Of a stretch of DNA of 32,816 nucleotides, positions 3,592-30,586 are shown piece by piece. A program made the translations under genes and the position numbers. Numbering within the stretch: the stretch's first letter is position 1; each line of letters starts with the position of its first letter. The stretch is from assembly GCA_017405765.1 (NCBI GenBank), contig JAFQZS010000010.1:1-32816 (forward strand). The letters run 5' to 3'. Source of the DNA: Clostridia bacterium (lineage in GTDB: Bacteria; Bacillota; Clostridia; Oscillospirales; RGIG577). The notes under the pieces are model-generated. The model did no database searches. It was not told the DNA's origin and was given only the letters and a program-made list of their open reading frames with translations.

Positions 3592-4548
3592 TTATCTGTC
3601 TTCTCTGAAATAGTTGAAGCCCAGGTTTTCCGGTATGTGGCTTCCCTTGTCGCCGCGTATCGACGCTATGAGCAGCACGGCCGCCGTTATGATGAACGGA
3701 AGCATATTGAAAAACGCTATCGGAATGACGGAGGGCACGTAGTATTTGAGCACACGAAGCGCGCCGAAAATAAAGCTGCCCAAAATGGCCGTTTGAGGCC
3801 GCCATGCGGCGAATATTACCAAAGCTACCGATATCCAGCCCAGGCCGCCGACGCAGTCGGATATCCACACGCCGCCGTTTATTATCATAGAGCAGTATGC
3901 TCCGCCTATGCCGCATATGCCGCCGCCTATAAGTATGTTTATAAATTTCCACTTCGTTACCCCGATGGAAGCGGCGTCGGCCGCCGCCGGGTTTTCGCCT
4001 ATCGCCTGCGTATTTAAGCCGGCCTTCGTTTTAAAAAGATACCAGCCGCATATGAGCGCTATGACTATGCCCGTATATGTGAACGGGTCGTATGAGAAAA
4101 TGAGCTTGCCCACAACGGGCACGTCGGAAAGAAGCGGGATGTGTATGCTCTTCATCTGCGCTATAAGGTCAGAAGAGAGCTGCCATGTGTTGCTCGTCGT
4201 TTTTCCCACCATGTATACGCCCACGAAATTTGCGAAGCCCACGCCGAATATCGTAAGCGTAAGACCTATTACGTTCTGGTTTGCCATAAAGCCTATGGTG
4301 AGCACGGCGTATATGAGCGCCGAGACCATGCCGCCCAAAAAGGCGGCTATCATCGAAAGCGCAAGATTATGGCTTGCGTAGCCCGCCATAAAGCCGGTAA
4401 GCGCGCCTATGGACATCATGCCCTCTACGCCTAAGTTAAGGTGTCCCACCTTTTCGGAGAGTATCTCGCCCACCGTACCGAATAAAAGCGGCGTTCCCGC
4501 GGCTACCGCGGCGACGATGAATTTTAAAACAAAATCAAGAGATATCAT
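3592..4548 (-). CDS. BMP-type nucleoside ABC transporter permease (NupQ-like)
   Basis: Second membrane subunit of a BMP-lipoprotein-dependent ABC importer; characterised relatives (B. subtilis NupNOPQ, streptococcal and lactococcal systems) import nucleosides. The 318 residues are strongly hydrophobic with about eight to ten predicted membrane segments. The N-terminal region LLFGTVGEILSEKVGHLNLG is typical of this subfamily, and GENPAAADAASIGV (about 187-200) is the cytoplasmic loop that contacts the ATPase. The ATG overlaps the stop of the preceding permease by four bases (ATGA), indicating translational coupling. It is last in the operon and is followed by a terminator. Substrate is inferred from family and from xpt at the operon head. 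Confidence 0.9.
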   Translation of the reverse strand: MISLDFVLKFIVAAVAAGTPLLFGTVGEILSEKVGHLNLGVEGMMSIGALTGFMAGYASHNLALSMIAAFLGGMVSALIYAVLTIGFMANQNVIGLTLTIFGVGFANFVGVYMVGKTTSNTWQLSSDLIAQMKSIHIPLLSDVPVVGKLIFSYDPFTYTGIVIALICGWYLFKTKAGLNTQAIGENPAAADAASIGVTKWKFINILIGGGICGIGGAYCSMIINGGVWISDCVGGLGWISVALVIFAAWRPQTAILGSFIFGALRVLKYYVPSVIPIAFFNMLPFIITAAVLLIASIRGDKGSHIPENLGFNYFREDR

Positions 4549-5672
4549 TTCTTTACCGCCTCCTTTGTTTCGGCCTTCGGCGCCTTGAGCTTTTTCTCCC
4601 TGTGTCCCGCAAATACTATCTTGTATCTTACAAAAAATTCTATCGCCATGATAAAGAAGAGTATTATGCCCTGAAGCACGTCGGCGCAGGCGGTGGAAAG
4701 GCCGAACGACGACTGTATTACGCTCGAACCCTTTTCAAGTATGCCGAACGCGAACGACACCACAAGCGCCGCTATGGGATTAAGCTGCGCAAGCCACGCA
4801 ATTATTATTCCCGTAAAGCCCACGCCGTTTGCAACGCCGGTGCTCAAGGTAGCGTCGGCGCCCGTCGCCTGTATCATGCCGGCTATACCGGCTATGCCGC
4901 CCGAAAGCGCCATCGTTCTTATAACTACGCGCTTTACGTTTATCCCGGCATATCTCGCCGTGTCGCGGCTCTCGCCCACTACGCCTATCTCATAGCCCTG
5001 CTTCGTTCTGTTAAGATAAATAAAGACCGCCACAACGAGCACGAGCATGACTATCCAGCCCATATGTATGCCTGCGACCTTGTCGAGCTGTGAATTCGAT
5101 GAAAAGCGCGCTATTTTGTTAAAGCCCGCCGCCTCGGGATCGCGCCAGGGGCCGTCTCGGAGGTATGCGACGATATAGAGCGCGATGTAATTTAACATCA
5201 GCGTAAAAAGCGTTTCGTTCGTGCCCCACTTCTCACGGCAGAGCGCCGGAATAAGGCCCCATATGCCGCCGCCTACAAAGCCCGCCGCAAACATTATCAC
5301 AACCAGCACGACATGCGGAAGCCCCGAACAGAAGAGCGCGAAATACGATGCGAAGACGGCGCCCATGATAAGCTGCCCCTCGCCGCCGATGTTCCAAAAC
5401 TTCATCTTGAACGCAAGCGTTACTCCGAGCGCCGATATGCACATCGGAATGGTGAATTTTACCGTAGCCTGAAACGCCATCACCGAGCGAAAGCAGCCCG
5501 TGACCATAGTTTTGTATATCTCAAAGGGATCATAGCCTATCGAGGCTATGAATATGCCGCCGACCGCGAGCGCCACGACTACCGCAAGGATGCGAAGAAG
5601 AAAGCTCTGCGTGCGCGAAAGCTCGGCATGCTTTACTATCCTTAAAAGCGGCTCTCTTTTTTTAGCCTGCAT
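4545..5672 (-). CDS. BMP-type nucleoside ABC transporter permease (NupP-like)
   Basis: First membrane subunit of the importer. The 375-residue protein has a basic N-terminal cytoplasmic segment, a hydrophobic core with about eight to ten segments, and a lysine-rich cytoplasmic tail. GLTGIIIAWLAQLNPIAAL-like sequence (beginning near residue 280 as GFTGIIIAW) and VGESRDTARYAGINVK (about 235-250) mark the BPD_transp_2 family used by branched-chain, sugar and nucleoside importers. It overlaps the end of the ATPase gene by 11 bases and the next permease by four, so the three genes are translated as a block. It pairs with the other permease as a heterodimer in known relatives. Confidence 0.9.
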   Translation of the reverse strand: MQAKKREPLLRIVKHAELSRTQSFLLRILAVVVALAVGGIFIASIGYDPFEIYKTMVTGCFRSVMAFQATVKFTIPMCISALGVTLAFKMKFWNIGGEGQLIMGAVFASYFALFCSGLPHVVLVVIMFAAGFVGGGIWGLIPALCREKWGTNETLFTLMLNYIALYIVAYLRDGPWRDPEAAGFNKIARFSSNSQLDKVAGIHMGWIVMLVLVVAVFIYLNRTKQGYEIGVVGESRDTARYAGINVKRVVIRTMALSGGIAGIAGMIQATGADATLSTGVANGVGFTGIIIAWLAQLNPIAALVVSFAFGILEKGSSVIQSSFGLSTACADVLQGIILFFIMAIEFFVRYKIVFAGHREKKLKAPKAETKEAVKK

Positions 5673-7194
5673 ATTCGCGTACCTCCTCCCACTTTTCGCC
5701 CGTCATCATAAGGCCTATCTGATCCTTTGTAACTGCCTCGGCGTCAACGACGCCCGTTACCTTTCCGTGGCAGAGCACCATTATCCTGTCGCAGAGCTGC
5801 AAAAGCACGTCAAGGTCCTCGCCTATGTATAAAACGGCGACGCCCTTTTTCTTCTGCTCGTTTAAAAGATCGTAAACGAGGTAGCTTGAATTTATATCAA
5901 GTCCCCTTACGGGATACGCCGTTATTATCAGGTCGGGACTTGACTCTATCTCGCGCCCGAGCAAAACCTTCTGCACGTTTCCGCCCGACATCATCCTTAC
6001 GGGCGTTTCAATGCCCGCCGTGACGATGCTGAATTTGTCAACGAGGCGCTCGGCCATCTTTCTTGCGGGCGCGCGGTCAATGAATGCGCCCTTGCCGCGA
6101 GTATAAGTTTTAAGGAGCATATTGTCGGTCATTCCCATGCCGGCGACCAGCCCCATGCCAAGCCTGTCCTCCGGCACAAAGCTCATTGATATGCCGCGGT
6201 CGATAAGCTCGCGCGGGGTCTTACCCGCTATATTCTCTTTTTTATAAAGTATCGCGCCCTTCTTCGGAGCGATAAGACCGGCTATCGTCTCGCAAAGCTC
6301 CTTTTGCCCGCTTCCGGCAATGCCGGCAACTCCCAGTATCTCGCCGCCGTTTATATGAAAGCTCACGTCGTCGAGCGCTGTGCTTCCGTCGGGGCGCATA
6401 ACGGTGAGATCTACGGTTTTTAATACCTCTTCGTCAGTATCCGTTTTCGGACGCTCTATCTCCAAAGAGACACGACGCCCCACCATAAGCTCCGTAAGCT
6501 TTGAAACGTCCACCTCGGCCGTCTTTACGGTGCCGAAGCTTTTGCCCTTTCTAAGTATCGTTACCCTGTCGGATATCGAGAGCACTTCGTTCAGTTTATG
6601 CGTTATTATTATTATCGCGCATCCGGCGGCGCGCATGTGCCTGAGTATCTCAAAAAGCTTTTCCGTCTCCTGCGGCGTGAGCACCGCCGTAGGCTCGTCC
6701 AAAATGAGTATATTCGCGCCGCGGTAGAGTATTTTCAGTATCTCCACCGTCTGTTTTTCGGATACGCTCATCTCGTGTACCGGCTTTTCGGGGTCTGTTT
6801 CAAGGCCGTATTTTTCGCAAAGCTCCGAAACGCGCTTTTTTAAGACCTTCGGCGGCAGCTTTTTCCCCGGCGTTCCGAGCTCGATATTCTCCATGGCGGA
6901 AAATATCTTAACAAGCTTAAAATGCTGGTGTATCATGCCTATGCCAAGCTTTTGGGCGTCCATGGGGCTTTGTATCGAAACGGGCTTTTCGTTTACATAT
7001 ATCGTGCCCTCGTCGGGATGATATATCCCCGATATCATGTTCATAAGCGTTGTTTTTCCGCTTCCGTTCTCGCCGAGAAGCGCAAGTATCTCGCCGTAGT
7101 TTAGCTCAAGGTCTATCTTGTCGTTCGCTATCACGTTTCCGAATACCTTGGATATCTTTTCGCACCTTATGGCGCATTTTACTTCACCGCTCAT
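5662..7194 (-). CDS. BMP-type nucleoside ABC transporter ATP-binding protein (NupO-like)
   Basis: Energy-coupling subunit carrying two ABC domains in one 510-residue chain, as in ribose- and nucleoside-type importers. N-terminal domain: Walker A GENGSGKTT (41-49), a signature written MSVSEKQ (142-148) rather than LSGGQ, and Walker B ILILDEP (162-168). C-terminal domain: GIAGSGQKE (291-299) in place of a true Walker A, signature MSGGN (402-406), and LIITAYPVRGLD (422-433), in which the catalytic glutamate region is altered. A degenerate second site is usual in this family, so it is not evidence of decay. The start has GGTGAGGAT immediately upstream. A strong terminator separates it from the lipoprotein gene, so its expression is probably lower than that of the lipoprotein. 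Confidence 0.93.
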   Translation of the reverse strand: MSGEVKCAIRCEKISKVFGNVIANDKIDLELNYGEILALLGENGSGKTTLMNMISGIYHPDEGTIYVNEKPVSIQSPMDAQKLGIGMIHQHFKLVKIFSAMENIELGTPGKKLPPKVLKKRVSELCEKYGLETDPEKPVHEMSVSEKQTVEILKILYRGANILILDEPTAVLTPQETEKLFEILRHMRAAGCAIIIITHKLNEVLSISDRVTILRKGKSFGTVKTAEVDVSKLTELMVGRRVSLEIERPKTDTDEEVLKTVDLTVMRPDGSTALDDVSFHINGGEILGVAGIAGSGQKELCETIAGLIAPKKGAILYKKENIAGKTPRELIDRGISMSFVPEDRLGMGLVAGMGMTDNMLLKTYTRGKGAFIDRAPARKMAERLVDKFSIVTAGIETPVRMMSGGNVQKVLLGREIESSPDLIITAYPVRGLDINSSYLVYDLLNEQKKKGVAVLYIGEDLDVLLQLCDRIMVLCHGKVTGVVDAEAVTKDQIGLMMTGEKWEEVREYAG

Positions 7195-7290
7195 ATCCTC
7201 ACCGCCTCTTTATCAAATGACGTTTTAAAACCTTTGGAAGGCTGCTTATCAAAACAAAAAAACATTTTTCGACTTTGGTAAGCAGTCCTC

Positions 7291-7330
7291 AAAAAAAGAC
7301 AAAGGGCGGATATAAAACCCGCCCTTTGTC
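7291..7330 (-). terminator. Intercistronic terminator between lipoprotein and ATPase genes
   Basis: A perfect 12-base-pair stem (7298-7309 with 7319-7330) is followed on the minus strand by seven T residues (7291-7297). It starts about eight bases past the lipoprotein stop. Partial read-through would give more binding protein than ATPase. A second imperfect stem, CTGCTTA/TAAGCAG (7242-7248 and 7279-7285), lies between it and the ATPase start. Confidence 0.85.
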
Positions 7331-7337
7331 GTTTCTA

Positions 7338-8540
7338 TTATTTAACAATTACATTCTTGTAGTATGCCGTTATAGCGGCGTAATTCGTGCCGTCTACCTC
7401 TAAAACGGAGCCGTCGTTCGTCTCCATAGCGCCGTCGCAGCCTATCATATTGCCCGCCGCGTCGGTGTACGTGCCGGTGAATACGTCGAACGAACCGTCT
7501 ATTATCGCCGCCGCAGCCGCGTTTATCGCGTCCTCGGTGCCTTCAGCAGCCTCTGTAGAAAGATCGGTTATGTTGCAAAGGCCGTCTGCCATCGAGCCGT
7601 AGTAGTTGTCTACCTTCTCGCCTATCACCCAAGTGCCGTCCATTACGTTCTTTACTGCCTGAGTGTAGTATGCGCCCCAGTTCCATACGACGCTCGTAAG
7701 TACGCTGTCGCCCACTTCGGCCGTCATGTCGGAGTTGTAGCCTACGCCCCATACGCCGTTGTCTCTTGCAACTATCTGCGGGTTATTCGTGTCGCAGTGC
7801 TGTGCGATAACGTCGCAGCCGTCGTCGATAAGCGCCTGTGCCGCCTGTCCTTCGCCCTCGGGGTCGTACCACGAATTCGTGATCTTTACCTCTACTACCG
7901 CGTCGGGATTTACTGCCGCAACGCCCATTGCGAACGCGTCTATACCGGAGGTGCACTCGCCGTTTTCAACGCCCTGCGCCGAAACGTAGCCTACCTTGCC
8001 CGTCCGGGTCTTTAGTCCTGCCGCTATGCCGGAGAGGTAGCGCGCCTCATATATGCGTCCGAAATAGTTGTTGAAGTTTTTGCCGTTCGACTTATAGCCC
8101 GTGCCGTGGGAGAAGAATACGTCGGGATACTCCTCGGCCAGAGCCTCGCAGGTGTCCATGTATCCCCAGGAGGTTGCAAAGATTATGTTGCAGCCCTCTT
8201 CAACGCACTCTCTCATGGCGTTCTCTATAGCCGTAGCGTCGGAGTCGTCTATGTTGTTCTTTCTTATTATCTGCTCGTCGGAAAGACCGAGCTCCTTCTG
8301 CATCGCCACTATGCCCTGATCGTGGGTATAGGTATAGCCCGATCCCGTTGCGGGGTCGCCTATGTGGATAACGCCCACCTTGATGTTCTCAACGGCTACG
8401 CCTGCCGCCGTCTCTGTCTGTTCGCTTTCAGTCTCTGCGCCCTGTGCGCCGTCGTCGCTTTTTTGCGATGAGCATCCCGCGAACGCAAGAAGCATCACGG
8501 CCAATGCGCACACAAGAGCCAGGATCTTTTTTACATTCAT
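7338..8540 (-). CDS. BMP-family nucleoside-binding lipoprotein
   Basis: Surface-anchored substrate-binding protein of the ABC importer. It has a lysine-containing N-terminus, a hydrophobic signal and a lipobox ending FAGC with the lipid-attached cysteine at residue 23, followed by a Ser/Glu/Thr-rich linker to about residue 50. The rest (400 residues in total) is a BMP/Med-type periplasmic-binding fold, beginning IKVGVIHIGDPATGSG and containing VEEGCNIIFATSWGYMD and AQHCDTNNPQIV. The ATG is preceded by GGAGGTAAGGG. It lies 48 bases after xpt with no promoter or terminator between. BMP proteins of this type bind purine nucleosides in studied cases; the ligand here is inferred. A strong terminator follows. 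Confidence 0.93.
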   Translation of the reverse strand: MNVKKILALVCALAVMLLAFAGCSSQKSDDGAQGAETESEQTETAAGVAVENIKVGVIHIGDPATGSGYTYTHDQGIVAMQKELGLSDEQIIRKNNIDDSDATAIENAMRECVEEGCNIIFATSWGYMDTCEALAEEYPDVFFSHGTGYKSNGKNFNNYFGRIYEARYLSGIAAGLKTRTGKVGYVSAQGVENGECTSGIDAFAMGVAAVNPDAVVEVKITNSWYDPEGEGQAAQALIDDGCDVIAQHCDTNNPQIVARDNGVWGVGYNSDMTAEVGDSVLTSVVWNWGAYYTQAVKNVMDGTWVIGEKVDNYYGSMADGLCNITDLSTEAAEGTEDAINAAAAAIIDGSFDVFTGTYTDAAGNMIGCDGAMETNDGSVLEVDGTNYAAITAYYKNVIVK

Positions 8541-8588
8541 TTTCCCTTACCTCCATATTTTTTTATTTAACGCGCTTTGCGTTATATA

Positions 8589-9161
8589 CTAACTGCGAAA
8601 TACTATTTTCCCCTCGTTCATGCTTTCTATCACGGCAAGCGACTCTACTCTCACGCCTTCTCTCCTAAGCGCGTCTCCGCCGCCCTGAAAGCCCTTTTCA
8701 ATGGCTATGCCCGCGCCGACAACGTGCGCGCCGGCCTGGGCGCATATGTCGATAAGGCCCCTAAGGGCGTTTCCCACCGCGAGCAGGTCGTCTATTATAA
8801 GCACCCTGTCGCTTTTTAGTAGAAACTTTTTCGATACGCGCACATCGTAAACTCTGCCCTTCGTAAACGACTCCACGGGGCTTGAATAAAGCTCGCCGTC
8901 TAAATTTTTGCTCTCCGATTTTTTTGCGAATATAACGGGCACGCCGAAATACTGCGCCGCGATGCAGGCTATGCCAATGCCCGACGCCTCTATGGTGAGT
9001 ATCTTCGTTACGTTTTCGCGCCCGAAAAGACGGTAAAACTCCTTTCCCATCTCACAAAAAAGACTTATGTCCATATTGTGATTTAAAAAGGCGTCTACCT
9101 TTAATATATTGCCCTCTCTTACGGAGCCGTATTTAAGAATATATTCCTTTAAAAGATCCAT
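8589..9161 (-). CDS. xpt: Xanthine phosphoribosyltransferase
   Basis: Salvage enzyme converting xanthine and PRPP to XMP in the cytoplasm. At 190 residues it matches the family length. The PRPP-binding motif is [13 protein letters not shown] (120-132), and the region [23 protein letters not shown]-like segment (from residue 80) ends in the SFTKG motif seen in Bacillus Xpt. The ATG has AAGGGGA upstream. It is the first gene of a unit with a nucleoside-type ABC importer, linking uptake and salvage. Xpt genes in Firmicutes are often under a purine riboswitch, but the leader here is only about 55 bases after the promoter, too short for that aptamer. Adenine phosphoribosyltransferase is the main alternative and is less likely on motif details. 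Confidence 0.92.
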
Positions 9162-25785: not shown

Positions 25786-26178
25786 GTTTAGAACGGAGTT
25801 CTATGATTCCTTTTCAATATACTTTTCTTTCTTTGCACTCGGTGTCCGCTGTAAGCGGGCTTTTTTAAACCTGCTTGTTTAATGCCGCCTATAACCAACG
25901 GGCACCAAAGACTTGGAGCGGCATTAAATAAGCAGGCGGCCTCATTTGTCATCCCGCGCGCCCCCTTTGTCATCCTGAGCGCAGCGAAGGATCTTTCTGC
26001 AATAAGATTCTTCGTCGCTTTGCTCCTCGACAATGACACGGGGGGAAGCCCCCCGCGAGGCGTGCCACCCCACACGGCAGGACGCCTCTCCCTACAGGTC
26101 ACCCAAAGGAGCGAAGCGATGCGGCGATCCGTCTCCCTATCCCAAAAACAAAAGAAACGCCGCGTCTGCGGCGTTTTT
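25786..26178. repeat. Mosaic of dispersed repeats replacing the end of an LRR gene
   Basis: From right to left: a terminator-like hairpin AAACGCCGC/GCGGCGTTT (26155-26163 and 26168-26176); a stretch with GGGGGG-AAG-CCCCCC near 26040; a repeat near 25968-25995 (TTTGTCATCCTGAGCGCAGC) of a type I recall as widespread between bacterial genes; a 17-base-pair stem-loop (25870-25936); and a TAGAAC/GTTCTA palindrome (25789-25803) related to those at both window ends. No transposase or target-site duplication was seen. Confidence 0.65.
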
Positions 26179-26663
26179 ACCAATCTCAGCGCGCTGCAGC
26201 GGTAAAACGCCCTCGCGCCTATGGACGTAACGCCCTCGGGAACGACTATCGAGGTAAGAGCCGTGCAATTATAGAACGCCTGCAAGCCGATAACGGTCAC
26301 GTTTGCGGGTATATTTATCGACTCAAGAGAGGTGCAGCCGTAAAACGCGGATGAGTCAATGTCTGTAAGGCCCTCGGGCAGATCAACGGACGCAAGCTCG
26401 CTGCAGTACGCAAACGCGCTGTGGCCGATGCTCGTCACCTCTCTGCCGCCTATCTCGTCGGGAATGTCCGCCGACGTCACTGTCGTGTCTGCGCCGGTTA
26501 TCGTTATCAGGCCGTCAAACACCTGATAGTAAAGATCACCGTTTTCTGCGGGGTACGTCATATCACCGCTCTGAACGTGCGTCGTGCCCGCCAGAGCCGC
26601 CGCAGGCAGCATGACCGCGATCATACATATTGCAATCAGCATACATATTAACTTGTTTTTCAT
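25788..26663 (-). CDS. BspA-like leucine-rich-repeat exoprotein, C-terminus replaced
   Basis: Secreted protein with a signal peptide (MKNKLICMLIAICMIAVM, cleavage near AALA) and then about four LRR_5 (BspA/Treponema type) repeats of the form AFYGCTSLESINIPANVTVI, ending at about residue 165. Relatives are cell-surface adhesins that continue for many more repeats and an anchor. Here the repeat stops mid-unit after FYRCSAL and the frame continues through dispersed repeats, giving a basic, low-quality tail of about 125 residues. The gene is therefore probably truncated, although an open frame persists. The start chosen has AGGAGAGGGAG upstream; an in-frame ATG 14 codons earlier lacks a site. Function is inferred from the repeats only. 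Confidence 0.75.
   Translation of the reverse strand: MKNKLICMLIAICMIAVMLPAAALAGTTHVQSGDMTYPAENGDLYYQVFDGLITITGADTTVTSADIPDEIGGREVTSIGHSAFAYCSELASVDLPEGLTDIDSSAFYGCTSLESINIPANVTVIGLQAFYNCTALTSIVVPEGVTSIGARAFYRCSALRLVKTPQTRRFFCFWDRETDRRIASLLWVTCRERRPAVWGGTPRGGLPPVSLSRSKATKNLIAERSFAALRMTKGARGMTNEAACLFNAAPSLWCPLVIGGIKQAGLKKPAYSGHRVQRKKSILKRNHRTPF
25870..25936. repeat. 17-bp stem-loop carrying a recurring 35-base motif
   Basis: CCTGCTT/AAGCAGG and TTAATGCCGC/GCGGCATTAA form a 17-base-pair stem with a small internal loop, enclosing about 29 bases. The motif at 25888-25922 matches 23-57 at 32 of 35 positions; the left-end copy lacks the flanking stem. Confidence 0.6.
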
Positions 26664-26778
26664 ATTCTCCCTCTCCTTTTCGGGCGCATAGGTATGTCGG
26701 ATCATTTATGATACCATTTTACCATATCCCCCCGTTCGCAACAAAAATTCGAAAGGCAGCGGCGCGGCACGCCTCCGC

Positions 26779-29199: not shown

Positions 29200-29373
29200 C
29201 TAAAATATTATTTGCGTATTTTTATTTAACTCTTGCTTTTTATCGTCTCGGTCCGAAAGGGCTTCATAAGAGCTGCCATATCGGGCTTTTCCCGCATGGA
29301 TCTTTATCTTGGCCCCAAAAACCGCCGCGGGGTATGCGTCATGCCCGCTTTGCCGTCTGCCTCTGTCAGTCAT
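29200..29373 (-). CDS. Possible 57-residue protein overlapping the CYTH-like gene
   Basis: Short open frame whose ATG lies inside the last three codons of the preceding gene (ATGACTGA overlap), an arrangement typical of translational coupling. The predicted product is hydrophilic and basic, includes AAVFGAKIKIHAGKARYGSS, and ends in QIIF. It has no membrane segment or recognised motif and no separate ribosome site. It ends just before the -35 box of the pta promoter. It may be real or a chance frame; it fills most of an otherwise empty gap. Confidence 0.35.
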   Translation of the reverse strand: MTDRGRRQSGHDAYPAAVFGAKIKIHAGKARYGSSYEALSDRDDKKQELNKNTQIIF

Positions 29374-30526
29374 GCGCGCCGAAAAAAGCGTCCATGATCC
29401 GCTGCGTTTTCAGCGAGTCTTCTTTTAACAGTATCCCCATGTTGTCAAGGTAGTTTATAAGCTCCTCACGCACGGCCGCCGCCTCATTATAGTCATCCGC
29501 CTTGACCGACAGCTCAGTAATATACTTGTCTTTGATCTCCCAGACCTCGATCCGTATCTCCGTTCCCCGATGATCCCCCGTGTAGCGCTTGAACATGACC
29601 GGCCCTGCCGTCTGAGCCGCTTCGATCGCATCGGTCCCCCAACCTTCTGTTTTCCAGTCTTTTTCTTCTGACGGCATTTTCTCCCTGATCATGGAAACGG
29701 CCTCGTTAAGGGGCAGCTCGGCTATCCCCGAATACCCGCCCGCGTCCTCGGCGGCTTCGGCCGAAAGACTAAGCGTCATGCTTGAATATCCCCACTCCAC
29801 CTCAGGCGACCACACGTCGTCGGATAGGATAAAGCCCTCCGTTTCCGCCCGGCGCAATTCGGCGGCAACGTCGCCGTCCGTTATGGGATACCGTTTTTTA
29901 TACGTCACCTTGAAGCCGTTTTCCGGTTTGTCCTCCCTGAACCTGATCCGGTTGATCCACCGCTCCTGTGTGAATTGTCGGTCGGCTGTGTCGAGATATA
30001 CCACGCCGAACGATTTATATTTTTTCCCCGTGGCAAATTCATCGCGCACTTCTTTCTTAAGAAAATGGTCTTCATCCAAAACCTGATCGGGATCCAATAA
30101 CAAATGGATCTCATATGAAAGCGGCGTCGTTTCGCCTATGTATCCCAATCGTTTCGCGGCGCACAAGGGTATCATCGAATCATCCAGCACCAAAAAAAGG
30201 GACGACGCGTTTGACACGTCAAAACTCAGGGGCTGTATTCCCGGCGAAAGGTGTTTTTTCTGTGCTCCGAGAAAACGGCCTTCGCCGTCGAAGCGAACGC
30301 ACCATGCGTCTGCGCTCTGTTCGCTGTCGGAGAGATAAAAGGACGCCGACCATCCGTGTTCTTCCCTGTGAACGGAGTCGATGCCTGCTTTCACCTGTTC
30401 TTCCCCGGCGCTTTCTTCTGCGGCAAAGCCCGATGTATGATAAGCGCACGCATATGCGGATACCGAAAAAACGATCAATAATAAAATGCAGGGCAAAAGG
30501 CGCCTCAGCCGTTTACTGTCGCTCAT
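29366..30526 (-). CDS. Secreted CYTH-like domain protein of unknown function
   Basis: Hypothetical exported protein of about 386 residues. A signal sequence (7-25, LRRLLPCILLLIVFSVSA) is followed by a region of about 110 residues with no match I recognise, then a segment from about 138 to 366 with the order of a CYTH/triphosphate-tunnel fold. That segment comprises EIHLLLD (139-145) where ExExK is expected, YLDTADRQF (177-185), INRIRFRE (191-198), VTYKKRYPI (207-215), EVEWGYSSMTLSLS (242-255) and IRIEVWEIKDKYITELSVK near 324-342. The altered ExExK suggests loss of canonical metal-triphosphate chemistry. An uncanonical AYAC at the signal end could be a weak lipobox. The start was chosen for AAAGGAGGA upstream. 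The fold assignment is from memory of motif order. Confidence 0.6.
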   Translation of the reverse strand: MSDSKRLRRLLPCILLLIVFSVSAYACAYHTSGFAAEESAGEEQVKAGIDSVHREEHGWSASFYLSDSEQSADAWCVRFDGEGRFLGAQKKHLSPGIQPLSFDVSNASSLFLVLDDSMIPLCAAKRLGYIGETTPLSYEIHLLLDPDQVLDEDHFLKKEVRDEFATGKKYKSFGVVYLDTADRQFTQERWINRIRFREDKPENGFKVTYKKRYPITDGDVAAELRRAETEGFILSDDVWSPEVEWGYSSMTLSLSAEAAEDAGGYSGIAELPLNEAVSMIREKMPSEEKDWKTEGWGTDAIEAAQTAGPVMFKRYTGDHRGTEIRIEVWEIKDKYITELSVKADDYNEAAAVREELINYLDNMGILLKEDSLKTQRIMDAFFGAHD

Positions 30527-30586
30527 ATATTTTCCTCCTTTGCATGGCGGACTTTTTATTGTCTTCACGATCCTTTTACTGATTTG

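Follow-up and report, generated by a model that had tools for sequence, protein, structure and literature searches.

The gene at 29366–30526 of the window (the whole stretch of 32,816 nucleotides analyzed here) encodes a predicted exported protein with a CYTH/TTM-like domain which, judging by its aligned residues, would retain one of two metal sites. The reading that we favor, and hold tentatively, is that the protein binds (poly)phosphorylated compounds outside the cytoplasm by means of a single metal and, in the window's species, is uncoupled from the importer encoded near the gene in relatives. The gene and the parts of its product are laid out as follows.

29366–30526, minus strand: coding sequence with stop codon, 386 aa, predicted exported CYTH-like protein (open reading frame, syntenic ortholog and dN/dS).
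30534–30538, minus strand: ribosome binding site GGAGG, 7 nt upstream of the ATG (sequence reading).
30446–30526, minus strand: signal segment, residues 1–27 (hydropathy and alignment).
30137–30394, minus strand: N-terminal module, residues ~45–130, common to the C-terminus of L002 (sequence similarity).
29369–30124, minus strand: CYTH/TTM-like domain, residues ~135–386 (PF01928, E 0.002; family profile versus CYTH, 95.8–96.9%).

The open reading frame reported in the earlier note stands; its strand, which that note did not give, is the minus strand, with the ATG start codon at 30526–30524. A second species of the genus, represented by a Clostridia MAG from sheep duodenum (L003), carries in the same place an ortholog whose product is 80% identical to the window protein. 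In both genomes the gene is flanked on opposite sides by a gene for a PF05636 HIGH-type nucleotidyltransferase and by two genes that we take, from their sequences, to be pta and ackA. Comparison of the whole gene with L003 gave a dN of 0.116 and a dS of 0.63 (NG86; dN/dS ~0.18), comparison of the CYTH-like part gave 0.106 and 0.70, and pta of the same species pair gave 0.015 and 0.37. Given the 80% identical syntenic copy and the whole-gene dN and dS, the window gene is not a chance reading frame: it is real, under purifying selection, and evolving faster than pta. Among 59 related genomes, the sole match to the window protein was this 80% identical copy (L003, in G001); a third genome of the genus, with 97% completeness and 5% contamination, and 57 further genomes of this set yielded none. 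A PF01928 search of the window's own genome returned only the window gene, under the cut-off, and a VTC gene (PF09359) is present elsewhere in that genome.

Hydropathy supports the signal sequence claimed for this protein. Residues 11–22 form its most hydrophobic stretch, with a best 12-residue mean of 2.96, and Cys27, kept in both species in the alignment of the window protein with L003, may be part of a lipobox. A survey of the relatives for signal peptides extends this finding: a simple hydropathy rule detects a signal-like segment in 62 of the 64 relatives read as open reading frames, the two exceptions being the plasmid genes L036 and L037, and none of 12 canonical CYTHs (13 tried, one without a readable motif) reaches the same threshold. 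The N-terminal region of about 110 residues, previously described as unassigned, indeed has no Pfam or NCBIfam assignment, but residues ~45–130 are similar to the C-terminal end of L002, a BspA-type LRR protein encoded in the same genome (38% over 74 aa, E 2.7e-5, and 36% over 72 aa in a second comparison), and because of this similarity part of the region can be regarded as a shared surface-type module. The window itself also contains, at 25788–26705, a BspA-type LRR gene with a signal segment and LRR_5; the C-terminal residues ~175–305 of its product are not LRR-like, and resemble read-through into repeat-like DNA with an arginine-rich translation.

The CYTH-like character proposed for the protein is weak when the single sequence is considered and clearer at the level of the family profile. 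Pfam PF01928 scored 18.4 bits (E 0.002) against the window protein, under the curated cut-off of 23.2, and L003 likewise stayed under it at 21.5 bits; searches of the window protein against NCBIfam gave no CYTH match, and PDB sequence searches gave no TTM/CYTH match. The same Pfam model matched 7 of 9 family members at E up to 1, with a best value of 8.4e-6, and a relative, G960, reached 25.6 bits in a frame that includes its neighbors; L135 and L130 had no Pfam CYTH match. Comparison by hhalign of 37 family rows with 12 canonical CYTHs gave 95.8% in local mode (72 columns) and 96.9% in global mode (206 columns), the C-terminal half of the family alone giving only 2.5%, and in reverse the family profiles retrieved the canonical CYTHs L026, L079 and L080, which served as controls. 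The VTC polyphosphate polymerase domain (PF09359) has a related tunnel fold. Membership in VTC is ruled out by hhalign values of only 13.4% (local) and 0.5% (global) and by the lack of a PF09359 match in the window protein. CYTH compared with VTC, to which it is considered related, gave 2.7% and 9.8%. AlphaFold2 runs with two alignment rows each yielded mean pLDDT values of 38.4 and 33.8. Judging from the profile comparison (96%), residues ~135–386 would adopt a CYTH/TTM-like fold.

Compared with CYTH/TTM proteins (PF01928, e.g. SaTTM), the window protein shows domain-wide profile similarity and matches their conserved residues with E139, RxR, a YK-type basic patch, E338 and K373. It differs from them in its predicted export, in its longer domain (~250 aa), in its score under the Pfam cut-off, and in two replaced glutamates, the first in ExExK and the second in ExE. 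The relevant residues are encoded as follows.

30104–30118, minus strand: Ser137-Tyr-Glu139-Ile-His141, aligned to ExExK (alignments).
29942–29959, minus strand: WINRIR, residues 190–195, with the invariant R193xR195 (alignments).
29891–29902, minus strand: YKKR, residues 209–212, conserved basic patch (alignments).
29501–29515, minus strand: ELSVK, residues 338–342, with E338 and S340 on the first and second Glu of ExE (alignments).
29405–29410, minus strand: K373-T374, near the C-terminal helix (alignments).

The earlier note had read the ExExK signature as EIHLL, a register that is off by two. In three joint alignments, window residues 137, 139 and 141 fall on the E, E and K of ExExK in 12/12 CYTHs, a register found also in the hhalign alignment of the family with CYTHs; the motif is thus SYEIH (137–141), in which the first Glu (S137) and the Lys (H141) are changed and the second Glu (E139) is kept. 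These joint alignments also place residues 193 and 195 on RxR and residue 340 on Glu in 12/12 CYTHs; residue 338 falls on Glu in all 12 CYTHs in two of them and in 10 of the 12 in the third. A single hhalign global alignment has its C-terminal part shifted by two residues, with low confidence. Tunnel residues were checked over the 72 domains that the alignment holds besides the window's, and E139, D179, R193, R195, R212, E327, E338, S340 and T374, which include the metal-1 ligands and basic residues, are invariant in 72/72. Position 141 is Lys in 70 of these relatives and His in L003 and L115. At position 137, 22 relatives have Asp, one has Glu and 49 have another residue; the plasmid relative L036, alone among the 72, has Glu there and hence a full ExExK.

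The N-terminal ExExK motif, given as the CYTH criterion in the sections of PMC8233210 considered here, reads SxExH in the window, and the strand-8 ExE, which carries two metal ligands, reads Glu-x-Ser in the window and 72/72 relatives. The phosphate-holding RxR is present in all of them as R193xR195. As for particular CYTH enzymes, the W/Y-x-R-x-R of thiamine triphosphatases is not matched, the conserved Trp190 lying three, not two, residues before R193; the small residue that replaces the first RxR Arg in class IV adenylyl cyclases is not found either, Arg193 being present in the window and 72/72 relatives, and their HF four residues before ExExK is absent from the 18 rows inspected. Since the Pfam score lies under the cut-off and neither ExExK nor ExE is intact, we would not class this protein among the canonical CYTH members.

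According to the same sections of PMC8233210, SaTTM holds one metal by E7 and E135, or, with calcium, two metals by E5, E7 and E137, and the second ExE Glu serves metal 2, the water activator, in TTMs and ThTPases. By this SaTTM map, the family would have retained the metal-1 pair (E139, E338), always lost one metal-2 ligand and mostly lost the other, which suggests that the second metal site used in classical hydrolysis is no longer intact across the family; a residual part of it may persist at position 137, as this position is acidic in 23/72 relatives. The degraded signature is therefore not a private decay of this protein: the first ExExK Glu and the second ExE Glu are lost family-wide, so that the window protein appears to be an ordinary one-metal member of its family. 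Only the Lys-to-His change at 141 is special to the window and L003, and occurs separately in L115.

The extent of the family emerged from successive profile searches. When 394 genomes from the order were searched with a two-row profile, 20 matches had E values of up to 1, of which the window, its sister and G387 (5.8e-24) were retained; the other 17, at E between 0.05 and 1, were regarded as chance and left unused. With G387 added to the profile, six matches came from 398 genomes of the phylum: four from family f129 at about 1e-56, the window, and one regarded as chance. Three matches were obtained from 391 genomes of the class (the window, the canonical CYTH L026 and one regarded as chance), and 148 genomes from the family of G387 returned, besides G387 itself, one match regarded as chance. 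A nine-row profile matched 74/197 genomes of f129 (Bacillota) and 20/200 genomes of the class of f129, including the canonical CYTHs L079 and L080 and a fragment, L078. L027, L029 and L035 were regarded as chance matches and not used. Plasmid records contained two family genes; the single match of another search falls on the helical linker of L007, off the domain; phages gave no family match and viral contigs no relative. In a tree, a long branch leads to the window pair, and the group that contains it has weak support; we therefore make no claim of horizontal transfer.

Several architectures occur among the relatives. The CYTH-like domain is fused with LTD and FIVAR in L025 and with fn3 in L108 and L120, and in a second architecture of ~550–565 aa fn3 and a stretch resembling GH115_C come after it (L120:7729–9417 and seven similar loci, the Pfam domains having been seen in two of these eight). 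The plasmid relatives without a signal segment, L036:4998–5765 from Priestia megaterium and L037:6028–7311 from Paenibacillus sp. 37, both lie close to S8 peptidase genes, and L037 carries a fused histidine-phosphatase-like domain. At G1403:C2:669958–670709 and G1441:C1:2207553–2207801, family copies are found in pieces only, with internal stop codons, and are perhaps broken genes or assembly errors.

An importer recurs in the neighborhood of the gene in relatives. We considered 68 loci, comprising 65 flanked stretches together with L003, L036 and L037; about 60 of the 68 were picked from match sites without long flank in f129 and its class, many near-identical loci of the f129 genus g547 were omitted, and L136, a fragment match, was kept as a miss. 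A bit-score rule defined a five-gene set consisting of a LysR regulator, an ABC ATPase, a binding protein, a fused permease and a beta-CASP protein. At least three of these five genes are present in 22/68 loci from five families, including L025 from the window's order, with the beta-CASP gene in view in 19 of the 22 and the LysR gene in 19; L086 and L088, which show parts only, were left out of the counts. The closest set gene lies within 400 bases of the CYTH-like gene in 16 of 21 measurable loci, and up to 3.2 kb away in the rest. Five more loci (L089, L094, L097, L102 and L118) combine a related importer with a calcineurin-like phosphoesterase, for which ApaH-type tetraphosphatases are the closest names in NCBIfam, under cut-off, and L116 combines an importer with a type I phosphodiesterase gene. 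A PhnS/iron-type ABC importer is thus found near the gene in 28/68 loci, 25 of which also have a beta-CASP, calcineurin-like or type I phosphodiesterase gene; a full importer of this type is absent from the other 40/68, the window's type included. The L003 locus and the eight fn3-bearing loci (Pfam run on two of the eight) have no such set, and none was seen by eye among the window's open reading frames. A search of the window's genome for the L025 fused permease, run without a positive control, gave no match. In L100, a calcineurin-like gene stands at the contig start.

The enzymes of these neighborhoods merit mention in their own right. The beta-CASP metallo-hydrolase at L038:7713–9134 and its equivalents in 18 other loci belong to the same set as the importer, and named beta-CASP relatives are mostly nucleases, for which a PhnS/iron-type importer is unusual company. 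Its place is taken elsewhere by a calcineurin-like phosphoesterase (L118:7699–8361) or a type I phosphodiesterase (L116:3426–4235), unrelated folds being swapped. A different transport locus lies in the window at 3592–9161, 21 kb from the CYTH-like gene, where a BMP/PnrA-type binding protein, an ABC ATPase, two permeases and a phosphoribosyltransferase gene probably form a nucleoside or purine importer operon.

Clues to the substrate of the relatives' importer point in more than one direction. The nearest NCBIfam names of its ATPase, binding protein and permease are PhnT2, PhnS and PhnU2, and the PhnS2/PhnT2/PhnU2 and Fbp-type ABC importers are the best-named models for these neighbors, although all model matches are under cut-off and such importer genes do not adjoin the window gene. 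Among the PDB entries related to the binding protein, iron binders rank first, and proteins that bind phosphonate or pyridoxal phosphate rank lower. The permease has relatives on plasmids (~35% identity), and most of those with an annotation are called iron permeases. An iron-linked role for the family is conceivable.

In the model that we favor, for which we infer the fold, the metal count, the ligand, the binding role and the cooperation with the importer, the protein would be exported and would carry a small surface-type module followed by the CYTH/TTM-like domain, displayed beyond the membrane. The tunnel would retain one metal site (E139, E338) and basic phosphate-gripping residues, and would be devoid of ligands for a second, water-activating metal, such that a (poly)phosphorylated compound would be bound with one divalent metal and not split by the classical two-metal route. 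In relatives with the importer, capture outside would be followed by import and by hydrolysis inside; in the window's species, where the gene stands alone, the product is probably a surface capture or sensing protein. Binding rather than two-metal splitting seems most likely because metal 1 and the basic residues are kept and the metal-2 ligands are gone. The suggestion of the earlier note that the protein is a binding or sensing derivative of the fold is thus the best fit, stripped of the idea of decay.

Strong conservation of residues would also suit an enzyme. The protein could be an active extracytoplasmic phosphohydrolase of altered chemistry, using one metal or acting on pyrophosphate or an organic phosphate, with release of the product for uptake. 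We consider this rather unlikely, yet an alternative to be taken seriously, given the tight constraint on the putative tunnel, with residues invariant in 72/72 relatives, and because the plant proteins AtTTM1/2, which lack the signature motifs ExExK and ExE, act on pyrophosphate according to the sections of PMC8233210 considered here. The presence of Asp or Glu at position 137 in 23/72 relatives and of phosphoesterase-type genes nearby points in the same direction. AtTTM1/2 (cluster 7 in that source) are likened to the family by description, and differ from it by a phosphoribulokinase domain fusion and by their restriction to plants and amoebae; moreover, the second ExE Glu, needed for metal 2 by that account, is Ser in the window and all relatives.

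Considerably less probable is that the fold serves another job, such as scaffolding or the binding of a non-phosphate ligand, for example a polymer of the cell wall or matrix. The fusions with LTD and FIVAR or with fn3 and the surface module of the window protein would accord with such a job, and acidic and basic residues could suit other ligands, but the residues retained are those that hold metal 1 and phosphates in TTMs, as described in the part of PMC8233210 considered, and a CBM29 match of a three-row profile (E 0.007) was gone with nine rows and is ascribed to chance. That the CYTH resemblance is itself fortuitous, or the window gene a decaying copy, is very improbable: the score under the Pfam cut-off, the long branch and the lack of the gene in the third genome of the genus would agree with it, but dN/dS is ~0.18, the window retains all nine family-invariant residues, and the profile evidence runs in both directions.

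In the sections of PMC8233210 considered here, CYTH proteins are treated as enzymes, the characterized members being hydrolases or cyclases, their physiological role is called largely elusive, class IV cyclases are described as devoid of any signal sequence, and no exported bacterial group is named. In the collection of papers covered by our literature search, no description of an exported CYTH-like family was found. More broadly, it is possible, though we hold this wider proposal with less confidence than the binding role itself, that a widespread extracytoplasmic triphosphate-tunnel class has dropped its catalytic metal to become receptors of phosphorylated compounds that partner PhnS/iron-type importers and interchangeable phosphoesterase-type enzymes, the window lineage having made of it a stand-alone surface protein. 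An exported one-metal family with a recurrent importer partner makes the extracellular role of this fold, and the cargo of the importer, directly testable.
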